In this document: positions 14,726-20,700 of the stretch, piece by piece
Position numbering within the stretch: the stretch's first letter is position 1
Layout: every line of letters begins with the position of its first letter
From: Struthio camelus
Lineage: Eukaryota; Chordata; Aves; Struthioniformes; Struthionidae
DNA length: 64,000 nt
Direction of reading: 5' to 3'
Assembly (NCBI RefSeq): GCF_040807025.1
Contig: NW_027182594.1
Location: forward strand, 62,001-126,000
Made by a program: the position numbers and the translations under genes
The notes under the pieces: generated by a model
What the model was told of the DNA's origin: nothing
Database searches by the model: none
What the model saw: the letters and a program-made list of their open reading frames with translations, nothing else

Positions 14726-17700
14726 TCAGACGGTGACCTCGTTGCGGCTGCCGGTGCGGAGCCGGGGGCCGGCCGGGGGTCCGGGCAGCAGCTGCAGCGG
14801 CTCGGGGGGGGCGGCGGCGGGGGGGCCGGGGGGCGGCGGGGGCGGCGGGGGGGGGCCGGCGGGCGCCAGGCTGCCCTGCGAGGCGGCGCGGGCGGCGGGG
14901 GGCCGGGGCGAGGGCAGAGCCCCCGGGCCCGCGGCACCGTCCCCCCCCCGGCGGCGGGGGCCAGCAGCAGCTCCTGGGAGGCCACGCGGCGCGGCGGCCC
15001 CCCCGGCCCGGCCCGGCCCCCCGGCAGCGGCAGGGTGCCCCGCGGCCCCCCGCCGCCCGCCCGCCCCCAGCCCCAGCCCTCCTCCGGCTCCGGCTCCGCT
15101 CCAGCTCCGCTGCGGGGGAGCGCCGGCCGGGCCGGCCGTCAGCGCGGGGGGGGGCACCAGCGCCGGGGGGGGGGCACGAGCGTGGGGGGGGGCGAGCGTG
15201 GGGGGGGCGGGCATGGGGGGTGTGAGCGCGGGGGGCACGAGCATGGGGGGGGCACGAGCATGGGGGTGTGAGCGCGGGGGGGCGCGAGTGCCAGGGGGGT
15301 GCAAGCATGGGGGGGGCAAGCGTGGGGGGCACGAGGATAGGGGGTGTGAGCACACGGGGGGGCACGACGACGGGGGGTGCGAACACGGGGGGCACGAGGA
15401 CAGGGGGGTGTGAACACGGGGGGCACGAGGACGGGGGGTGCGAGCACACGGGGGGGCACGAGGGACGGGGGTGCGAACACGGGGGGCACGAGGACGGTGC
15501 GTGCGAACACGGGGGGGCACGAGGACGGGGGGTGCAAACACGGGGGGCACGAGGACGGCGGGGTGCGAACACGGGGGGGCACGAGGACGGGGGGTGCAAA
15601 CACGGGGGGCACGAGGATGGGGGGTGCGAACATGGGGGGGCACGAGGACGGGGGGTGCGAACACGGGGGGCACGAGGACGGGGGGTGCGAACACGGGGGG
15701 GGCACGAGGACGGCGGGGTGCAAACACGGGGGGCACGAGGACGGCGGGGTGCCACGGGGGGGCACGAGGACGGGGTGTGAACACGGGGGGCACGAGGATG
15801 GGGGGGTGAGAACACGAGGGGACGAGGACGGGGGGTGAACATGGGGGGTGCGAACACGGGGGGGCACGAGGACGGGGTGAGAACACAGGGGCACGAGGAC
15901 GGGGGGTGCAAACACGAGGGGGCACGAGGACGGGGGGTGCGAACACGGGGGGGCATGAGGACGGGGGGTGTGAACACGGGGGGGCACGAGGACGGGGGGT
16001 GCGAACACGAGGGGGCACGAGGACGGGGGGTGCAAACACGGGGGGCACGAGGACGGGGGGTGCAAACACGAGGGGGCACGAGGACGGGGGGTGCGAACAC
16101 GGGGGCACGAGGACGGGGGTGCAAACACGAGGGGGCACGAGGACGGGGGGTGCGAACACGGGGGGCATGAGGACGGGGGGTGCAAACACGGGGGGCACGA
16201 GGACGGGGGGGTGTGAGCACACGGGGGGCACGACGATGGGGGGGTGCGAACACGGGGGGGCACGAGGACGGGGTGTGAGCGCACGGGGGGGCACGAGAAC
16301 GGGGGGTGCAAACACGAGGGGGCACGAGGACGAGGGTGCAAACACGGGGGGGCACAAACACGGGGGCACGAGGACGGGGGTGCAAACACGGGGGGGCACA
16401 AACACGGGGGCACGAGCACACGCCTGGTGCGAGCGCACGGGGGGGGCACGAGCGCGTGGGGCCGGCGTGAGCACGCGGGGCTGGTCGGGGCGCACGGGGC
16501 AGCGAAAGCGCCCGGGACGTGCACACGCGTGTGCAAGGCTGGCGGGGGGGGGGCAGGGACACACGCGGGGGTGGGGACACACACACACAGGGACACACGC
16601 ACACAGACACGCGTGCGGGGGCGGGGGGGACACACGTGCACACGCATGCACACGCATGCACACGCGTGTGCGGCTCACCCAGGCGCCGCAGGGAGGTGCA
16701 GCGGGCGCGCGGGGCCGGCTCGCACGCACACAGACACGCGTGCGGGGCGGGGGGACACACATGCACACGCATGCACACGCTTGCACACGCGTGTGCGGCT
16801 CACCCAGGCGCCGCAGGGAGGCGCAGCGGGCGCGCGGGGCCGGCTCGCACGCACACAGACACGCGTGCGGGGCGGGGGACACGCGCGCACACGCGCGCAC
16901 ACGCGTGCACACGCACGCACACGCGTGTGCGGCTCACCCAGGCGCCGCAGGGAGGCGCAGCGGGGGCGCGGGGCCGGCTCGCACGCACACAGACACGCGT
17001 GCGGGGCGGGGGGACACGCGCGCACACGCATGCACACGCATGCACACGCGTGTGCGGCTCACCCAGGCGCCGCAGGGAGGCGCAGCGGGCGCGCGGGGCC
17101 GGCTCGCACGCACACAGACACGCTGCGGGGCGGGGGGGACACGCGCGCACACGCATGCACACGCGTGTGCGGCTCACCCAGGTGCCGCAGGGAGGCGCAG
17201 CGGGCGCGCGGGGCCGGCTCGCACGCACACAGACACGCGTGCGGGGCAGGGGACACGCGCGCACACGCGTGCACACGCACGCACACGCGTGTGCGGCTCA
17301 CCCAGGCGCCGCAGGGAGGCGCAGCGGGGGCGCGGGGCCGGCTCGCACGCACACAGACACGCGTGCGGGGCGGGGGGACACGCGCGCACACGCGCGCACA
17401 CGCTTGCACACGCGTGTGCGGCTCACCCAGGCGCCGCAGGGAGGCGCAGCGGGCGCGCGGGGCCGGCTCGCACGCACACAGACACGCGTGCGGGGCGGGG
17501 GACACGCGCGCACACGCATGCACACGCATGCACACGCGTGTGCGGCTCACCCAGGCGCCGCAGGGAGGCGCAGCGGGGGCGCGGGGGCCGGCTCGCACGC
17601 ACACAGACACGCGTGCGGGGCGGGGGAAACGCGCGCACACGCATGCACACGCTTGCACACGCGTGTGCGGCTCACCCAGGCGCCGCAGGGAGGCGCAGCG

Positions 17701-20700
17701 GGCGCGCGGGGCCGGCTCGCACGCACACAGACACGCGTGCGGGGCGGGGGGACACACGTGCACACGCGCGCACACGCATGCACACACGTGTGTGGCTCAC
17801 CCAGGCGCCGCAGGGAGGCGCAGCGGGCGCGCGGGGCCGGCTCGCACGCACACAGACACGCGTGCGGGGCGGGGGGACACGCGCGCACACGCGCGCACAC
17901 GCATGCACACGCGTGTGCGGCTCACCCAGGCGCCGCAGGGAGGCGCAGCGGGGGCCCACGGCGCTCTCGTAGGGGGGCGGCGGAGGCGCCAGGTTGTGGA
18001 AGGAGCGGGAGCAGCTCAGGGCGCCGGCGCGGGGCCCCGGCGGCGGCCGCAGCCGCCAGTCTGCGCCGGGCGGGAGCTGTGGGGCTGCCCCACGGCGGGG
18101 GGCGCCGGACCCCCCAGCACCCCCCCCATGGCATGGGGCGCCGGACCCCCCATCATCCACCCCCCCCCGTGCATGGGGCAGCGGACCCCCATCATCCCCC
18201 CCCCATGGCACGGGGTGCCGGACCCCCATCATCCCCCCCCCACGGCGCGGGGCACTGGACCCCCATCACCCCCCCCATGGCATGGGGCAGTGGACCCCCA
18301 TCATCCACCCCCCCCATGGCATGGGGTGCCGGACCCCCATCACCCCCCCCATGGCATAGGGCACCGGACCCCCATCATCCACCCCCCCCATGGCATGGGG
18401 CAGCGGACCCCCATCATCCCCCCCCCATGGCGCGGGGTGCCGGACCCCCATCATCCCCCCCCATGGCATGGGGCAGCGGACCCCCATCATCCCCCCCCCA
18501 CGGCACAGGGCGCTGGACCCCCATCACCCCCCCCATGGCATGGGGCAGCGGACCCCCATCATCCACCCCCCCCATGGCATGGGGCAGCGGACCCCCATCA
18601 CCCCCCCCACAGCACATGGTGCCAGACTCCCCAGTCCCCCAATGCTATGGGGCAGGGACCCCCCCCAGACCCCCCATGCTATGGGGCACGGAAACCCCCA
18701 GACCCCCCGCACCATGGGGCAGGGACCCTCCAGACCCCCGTGCTAGGGGGCGGGGACCCCCCGACCTCCCATGCTATGGGGCAGGGACCCCCCCCCACCA
18801 TGGGGTACAGACCCCCCCCCATAACCCCCCTGTGCTATGGGGCACAGACCCTCCCAGCCCCCCCCACGCCGTGGGGCACCCCAGCCCCCCCGGCCCCCCG
18901 CGCCGTGGGGCAGGGACACCCCAGCCCCCCCGGCCCCCCGTACCCAGGGTGGCGCCGTGGGGCTCGGGGCTGCCCACGCTGAGGTGCAGGTAGTTGTGCA
19001 AGTTCTCTGCGGGGCGACGGGTCGCCGTTACCCCCCCACCACCATCAACCAGCGCTAATTACCCCCCCGGCTCGTCAGCGCCCCTCGTCACTGGGGCCCC
19101 AGCCCCCGCCCTGCCCCATGGGTCCCCCCCAGACCCCCCCCCACCCCACAGGACCCCCAAACCTCCCCAGACCCCCCCAGGCCCCCCTCCCTGCCCCACG
19201 GGACCCCCAAACCCCATAGGGACCCCCCCAGACCCCCCTCCCTGCCCCACAGGACCCCAAACCCCATGGGAACCCCCCTAGACCCCCCTCCCCTGCCCCA
19301 CGGGACCCCCAAACCCCATAGGGACCCCCCCAGACCCCCCTCCCTGCCCCACAGGACCCCCAAACCCCATGGGAGCCCCCCCAGACCCCCCTCCCTGCCC
19401 CACGGGACCCCCAAACCCCATGGGAACCCCCCCAGACCCCCCTCCCTGCCCCATGGGAGCCCCCCCAGACTCCCCTCCCTGCCCCATGGGACCCCCAAAC
19501 CCCATGGGAACCCCCCCAGACCCCCCTCCCTGCCCCACGGGACCCCCAAACCACATGAGACCCCCCCAGACTCCCTTCCCTGCCCTATAGGACCCCCAAA
19601 CCCCATGGGGACCCCCAGAACCCATCCCTGCCCCACGGGACCCCCCAGACCCCCCCCAACCCCCCTCTCCCAGCCCCATGGGGCCCCTAGGACCCCCCCA
19701 CCCCCCGGGACCCCCGGGACCCCGCACCGTGGTTGCCCTTGGGGGGGCCGTAGAGGCCCTTGGGGGGCCGGGCCGGGCCGTTGTCCGGGGGGCCGGCGGC
19801 GAGGCCGGTGCTGCTGCGGCGCTCGGGGCGCCCGCCGCCGCCCGCCTGGTGCCGCAGGATGTCGACCAGGGCCCTGCGGGGACGGGGGGACACGAGGGGC
19901 CGGGGGACACGGGGGGGGGGACAGGGGGACCCCCCTCAGCGACCCTGCACAGCTGCCGCTGGGGCCAGGATCCATCCCCGGCCCCTTTGCACGAGGACCG
20001 GGTGCAGGATGCACCAAGACCCCTTTGCACGGGGGCCGGGTGCAGGATGCCCCCCAACCCCTTTGCACGAGGACCGGGTGCAGGATGCCCCCCGACCCCT
20101 TTGCACGAGGACCAGGCGCAGGACGCCCCCCGACCCCTTTGCACGAGGACCGGGTGCAGGACGCCCCCCCCACCCCTTTGCACGAGGACCGGGCGCAGGA
20201 CGCCCCCCGACCCCTTTGCACGAGGACCGGGTGCAGGATGCCCCCCGACCCCTTTGCACGGGGACCAGGTGCAGGACGCCCCCCGACCCCTTTGTATGAG
20301 GACCGGGTGCAGGATGCACCAAGACCCCTTTGCACGAGGACCGGGTGCAGGACGCCCCCCCCACCCCTTTGCACGAGGACCGGGCGCAGGACGCCCCCCG
20401 ACCCCTTTGCACGAGGACCGGGTGCAGGATGCCCCCCGACCCCTTTGCACGAGGACCGGGCGCAGGACGCCCCCCGACCCCTTTGCACGAGGACCGGGTG
20501 CAGGACGCCCCCCCACCCCTTTGCACGAGGACCGGGCGCAGGACGCCCCCCGACCCCTTTGCACGAGGACCGGGTGCAGGATGCCCCCCGACCCCTTTGC
20601 ACGGGGACCAGGTGCAGGACGCCCCCCGACCCCTTTGTATGAGGACCGGGTGCAGGATGCACCAAGACCCCTTTGCACGAGGACCGGGTGCAGGACGCCC

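Follow-up and report, generated by a model that had tools for sequence, protein, structure and literature searches.

The window analysed here is a stretch of 64,000 nucleotides of Struthio camelus DNA (contig NW_027182594.1, positions 62,001 to 126,000), 72% of which consists of tandem repeats. SHISA7, which we take to encode an auxiliary protein of the GABA-A receptor, occupies five coding exons on the minus strand, and at the end of the fourth exon lies a tandem array, on the same strand, whose units each carry a copy of the exon edge and its splice donor. Pfam places a Shisa_N domain (PF13908, E 2e-16) in exon 1, and the last exon has a frame that closes with NEVTV and a stop. The exons, the array and its donors are arranged as follows.

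22385..22901, minus strand: SHISA7 coding exon 1, with the Shisa_N domain
19728..19873, minus strand: SHISA7 exon 2
18944..19006, minus strand: SHISA7 exon 3
17926..18060, minus strand: SHISA7 exon 4, 135 nt, ending 1 base past its last full codon, as placed by the reading phase
17920..17928, minus strand: genuine exon 4 donor TGG|GTGAGC, placed by phase and by an intron position shared with a paralog exon
16596..17952, minus strand: donor-carrying 125-bp tandem array, made of the exon 4 edge, the donor and an alternating CACACGCGTGTG-type tail
17795..17803, minus strand: donor copy 1
17670..17678, minus strand: donor copy 2, whose GTGAG gives the in-frame TGA
17545..17553, minus strand: donor copy 3
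17421..17429, minus strand: donor copy 4
17296..17304, minus strand: donor copy 5
17172..17180, minus strand: donor copy 6, exon part with one substitution
17057..17065, minus strand: donor copy 7
16932..16940, minus strand: donor copy 8
16798..16806, minus strand: donor copy 9
16673..16681, minus strand: donor copy 10, exon part with one substitution
14726..15109, minus strand: SHISA7 exon 5, with NEVTV and a stop in one of three frames

Tandem Repeats Finder (TRF) delimits the array at 16596-17952, with a period of 125, 10.9 copies and 92% matches. The first of these copies, which starts within exon 4, is that exon's genuine edge. In the genuine donor, TGG|GTGAGC, the G of GT stands at 17925; in the ten intronic copies it stands at 17800, 17675, 17550, 17426, 17301, 17177, 17062, 16937, 16803 and 16678, a spacing of 115-134 bp. 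Each intronic copy comprises the last 27-30 coding bases of exon 4 followed by TGG|GTGAGC. The exon-derived part is exact over 30 bases in three copies and over 27 bases in five, and carries one substitution in 27 bases in the remaining two, while all eleven donor 9-mers are identical. The window contains CTGGGTGAGCC 11 times on its minus strand, always inside the array, and never on its plus strand. A search of the 1.45-Gb assembly for an exact 20-base core gives 10 matches, every one of them in this array. Exon 4 is the only one of the five SHISA7 exons with repeated 20-mers; with 16-mers, exons 1 and 5 also give a few words seen twice. A prior interpretation made from the letters alone (the sequence-only reading) had placed ten tandem units beside the genuine boundary, each with the end of exon 4 and its donor, and had counted eleven near-identical donors in a row. 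Both counts stand, and the donors prove identical over nine bases. The strand of the gene, which that reading had left unsaid, is minus. The array itself was also correctly perceived, although its extent had been given as 16570..17930 and it starts at 16596, and the coding bases per unit, put at about 25, measure 27-30.

The position of the genuine donor is fixed by the reading phase through exons 2-4 and by the boundary in a paralog. An alternative start of exon 4 at 18076 was rejected because it breaks the frame of exons 2-3, which a start at 18060 keeps. The paralog exon (contig C19, locus L020) has 58% identity to SHISA7 in a weak match (E 0.272), a Shisa_N match lies on the same contig, and the exon boundary has the same position, one base beyond ...SSLKRL. 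The genuine donor is taken as native on account of this agreement in phase with the paralog. The paralog locus, on a large contig, has no array, with 0 tandem repeats in 3108 bp and a single donor copy.

Arrays of this architecture have recently been given a name. Exon stuttering, reported on avian dot chromosomes and described in chicken, refers to tandem arrays that repeat the lateral portion of an exon, together with its donor or acceptor, along the neighbouring intron (Hron et al., 2026; PMC12954441). In the available part of that article, 115 genes and 236 introns are affected in chicken, 190 of these introns being on dot chromosomes; the exon part measures 20-187 bp (median 36), is present in 1-44 copies (median 4) over a span of 112-23,555 bp, and in more than 90% of cases reaches within 1 base of the exon border. 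The threshold given there is a blastn-short match of at least 20 bp and at least 42.1 bits, above a shuffled control (PMC12954441). All ten SHISA7 copies pass this threshold, and all 10 matches end at the last exon base. With a 27-30 bp exon part, 10 copies and a length of about 1.3 kb, the array lies within the published ranges. It also resembles the published cases in consisting of direct tandem copies of an exon edge and splice site in the adjacent intron, in its location on a GC-rich, repeat-filled contig, and in having a related gene copy elsewhere, the weakly matching paralog, without repeats. The published cases come from chicken; the SHISA7 array is known from one assembly, whose 1.45 Gb does not match chicken in size. 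The array is a new example of this recently described avian instability, not a new kind of element, and it extends the phenomenon to SHISA7.

Two further systems offer precedents for splice signals within tandem repeats. The amphioxus 'mirages' of Adh3, globins, troponin C and PGBD5 are tandem duplications of exon-intron boundaries that leave splicing regular (PMC3087553, PMC3902484). As far as the accessible parts of these articles go, they share with SHISA7 a minisatellite-like repeat that straddles an exon-intron boundary and whose copies include splice signals, and differ in coming from a cephalochordate, in having no tie to GC-rich dot chromosomes and in having had their splicing examined by reverse transcription PCR. 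The vertebrate SHISA7 array may, by analogy, work like a mirage, and it is not classed as one. In the human ABCA7 intron 18 variable number tandem repeat (VNTR), 25-bp units, 12-427 of them, begin with the exon 18 donor (PMC5954066). According to the passages available, the donor of the next unit is used in 2 +/- 1% of transcripts whatever the length of the array and gives a frameshift, whereas longer arrays raise exon 19 skipping; this VNTR has been functionally tested and is disease-associated (PMC5954066). Both arrays have the canonical donor in the first unit and repeat it in each unit (11/11 in SHISA7); the ABCA7 unit is 25 bp long, and copied coding bases are not mentioned in those passages. 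The sequence-only reading had known of no described family of donor-carrying arrays, a view that exon stuttering (PMC12954441), mirages (PMC3087553) and the ABCA7 VNTR (PMC5954066) overturn. The main text of the avian study lacks the words 'RNA-seq' and 'mirage', and the study appears, on inspection, to leave the splicing consequences untested and the link to mirages unmade.

The consequences of using each donor can be read from the assembled sequence. Exon 4 would be 135 nt long with the genuine donor, then 260, 385, 510 and up to 1382 nt with the successive copies. Donors 3-10 all reach one stop, a TGA at 17674 made by copy 2's own GTGAG, which sits 124-996 nt ahead of the new junction; under the usual rule, a stop that far before a junction predicts decay. 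With donors 1 and 2, the insert has no stop and the frame departs from that of the genuine donor. The suggestion that a downstream copy would leave extra sequence retained or out of frame is partly borne out, by a common stop for donors 3-10 and a shift for donors 1 and 2, but exon 5 as assembled is itself inconsistent in frame. As assembled, exon 5 has conserved-looking pieces in three frames (the stretch after the genuine donor, RGTLPL and NEVTV), which presumably correspond to SHISA family motifs, and in exon 1 the ATG frame and the Cys-rich frame differ. These breaks suggest either that some bases in G/C runs are wrong or that the gene is damaged.

Very probably, the array is a passive case of exon stuttering, a by-product of local tandem expansion, and the genuine donor is the one mainly used. 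By chance, a first repeat block would have included both the 3' end of SHISA7 exon 4 and the beginning of intron 4; this block may then have expanded to eleven copies on a dot-chromosome-like contig, with partial homogenisation by unequal exchange, gene conversion or slippage, leaving extra donors that would have no function of their own. Alternating purine-pyrimidine DNA can take the Z-form and be unstable. Such runs of at least 10 bases cover 708 of the 1357 array bases, compared with 7.3% of the window; the alternating tail perhaps helped the expansion, and is a plausible driver of it. The genuine donor would be favoured by exon definition and should account for most splicing, as it ends the normal 135-nt exon, whereas copy 1, with its 260-nt exon, might see low-level use and copies 2-10 almost none. 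Off-target products would mostly have a stop or an altered frame and would be degraded. Passive behaviour has its precedents, by analogy, in the mirages and in the 2 +/- 1% use of the next donor in ABCA7.

Several points weigh against the passive reading. It rests on the sequence of one assembly, and the dot-chromosome-like nature of the contig is deduced from its composition. The invariance of the donor 9-mer, which has zero variable columns in ten units, would also be expected from selection. The genuine donor is also predicted to be slightly more open than every copy in two of the three fold settings used. Lastly, the ABCA7 array strongly alters splicing by another route, exon skipping that rises with length (PMC5954066, in the part available).

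The rival that survives best, though it is unlikely, is a functional cassette of decoy donors that tunes SHISA7 splicing, either by multiple U1 binding for exon definition or by diversion to decay. Eleven identical donor 9-mers of similar predicted accessibility could each be bound by the spliceosome, the single stop common to donors 3-10 would suit diversion, and expanded ABCA7 arrays do change splicing (PMC5954066, same passages). However, the same lack of variation is seen in 42 of the unit's 125 circular 9-column blocks; the donor does not stand out from many of them, and this comparison lends no support to selection on it. Similar arrays at unrelated genes of the contig also fit a local mutational process better than a gene-specific function. 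RNA structure that hides the copies was considered and rejected: across three fold settings, the genuine donor is predicted to be unpaired with a probability of 0.28-0.43 and the copies with one of 0.25-0.38, values that hardly differ. The idea that decoys buffer donor choice finds no support in either comparison, as accessibility hardly separates the donors and the donor is no more constant than other blocks. Donor scores are rough here, because the score matrix was built from textbook frequencies.

An assembly artefact, in which mis-joined long reads or polishing created the copies, is very unlikely. The apparent frame inconsistencies of SHISA7 exons 1 and 5 in G/C runs make base-level errors likely nearby, and the exact copy number is that of one assembly, as assembled. 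Nevertheless, the 11 units are all distinct, with 92% identity on average (82-98) and lengths of 115-134 bp. A copy-paste duplication during assembly does not fit, because no two of the 11 units match fully and their lengths differ. The available part of the avian study reports that raw nanopore reads bore out the general structure of the PHF8 intron repeats (Hron et al., 2026; PMC12954441).

It is highly improbable that donor copy 1 is a real alternative site, which would add an arginine- and cysteine-rich insert and let the copy used set the protein tail. Donor 1 alone of the eleven reads open, as assembled, from exon 2 through the 125-nt insert to the exon 5 frame with the conserved NEVTV tail, and were this alternative true, the repeat would have given SHISA7 a new arginine- and cysteine-rich insert. 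Finally, chance resemblance in low-complexity sequence, conceivable in a window rich in GC-rich arrays, is extremely improbable and was rejected on shuffle counts and blast bit scores: 27-30 coding bases and the donor, rather than a donor hexamer alone, stay in register, 200 dinucleotide shuffles of the intron yield 0 copies with at most two mismatches versus 10 observed, and the ten copies score 46-60 bits in blastn-short against a maximum of 26.3 in shuffled introns.

An exon with eleven identical, near-regularly spaced donors lends itself to studying how the spliceosome picks one of several equal sites. SHISA7 is not isolated in its surroundings. Per 16 kb, the contig (C74, 299 kb) has a GC content of 0.63-0.79 and a repeat cover of 0.20-0.82. 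Of the window's donors, 14 were tested: 12 occur once, that of SHISA7 exon 4 has 11 copies and one donor of ISOC2 has 26.

31629..33604, minus strand: second donor-carrying array, ISOC2 donor CTG|GTGCGCCCC, 26 copies with an exon part of about 8 bases

The ISOC2 donor has 26 copies when compared over positions -8/+14 and 1 when compared over -12/+14, and the array gives 0 matches passing the 20-bp blast criterion. When the exon pair is joined at the repeated donor, its alignment to isochorismatase-family chains continues over the junction (best E 1.8e-20). Pfam returns nothing for the ISOC2 piece at 30669-30785. A donor copied with only about 8 exonic bases falls below a 20-bp screen, so splice-site copying is probably undercounted. 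Repeated acceptors are absent from the window as far as they were sought: 0 of 13 have extra copies, and that of exon 5 has none either (0/1), the exon 4 acceptor tested being that of the rejected 18076 candidate.

A survey of C74 1-256000, which is 86% of the contig, less 2,700 bases, lists 85 candidate repeated donors, SHISA7 and ISOC2 included. Six others were inspected, of which two were kept and four are doubtful; the remaining 77 were judged from the list alone. At L024:2616-4013 (plus strand), the last 34 bases of a WD40 exon (E 1.3e-06), GRWD1-like by a name we assume, are present in seven further copies. A pyrimidine tract with AG precedes each copy and GTGYGT follows it, so that each resembles a 34-nt micro-exon with both splice sites; all seven pass the exon-stuttering criterion, and inclusion of one copy would shift the frame while three would keep it. 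This array, with its paired acceptor and donor copies, offers a natural test of micro-exon recognition. At C74:153271 (minus strand, in L033), the edge and donor of a SULT2B1-like exon (E 6.8e-14) are repeated three more times, 90 bp apart, with two of the three copies exactly at the 42.1-bit threshold.

For acceptors, the same survey gives 63 candidates, 22 of them with less than 60% repeat cover downstream. Four were inspected: one adjoins a recognisable exon, one lies near the SHISA7 start codon and two resemble plain arrays. The recognisable exon, at C74:50588 (minus strand, in L029), reads GVLWLAVVAEFLHVAFLSAGVLLLALE, is GSG1-like by a name we likewise assume, and is preceded by an array with eight further copies of the acceptor stretch, several with about 11 exonic bases. 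The site near the SHISA7 start codon is an acceptor-like CCCCAG at 22927 (minus strand), 26 bases before that codon; it is the last of four array copies and a candidate acceptor.

A core, CCCAGGCGTCCGGG (PDAW in translation, or its other-frame readings), is found in many of the arrays in the window and on the contig, including 31629-36817 and 54335-57371. The latter, on the minus strand, is a 155-bp array with 32 copies of the donor-like GAGGTGGGG, beside which no exon edge was identified. A piece at 59342-59536, RASIP1-like by an assumed name, gives nothing in Pfam. UBE2S is supported by the Pfam family UQ_con, and the order UBE2S-SHISA7-ISOC2 presumably matches human 19q13.42. At 2846-3223, an exon that we take to be visinin-like has EF-hands according to Pfam.

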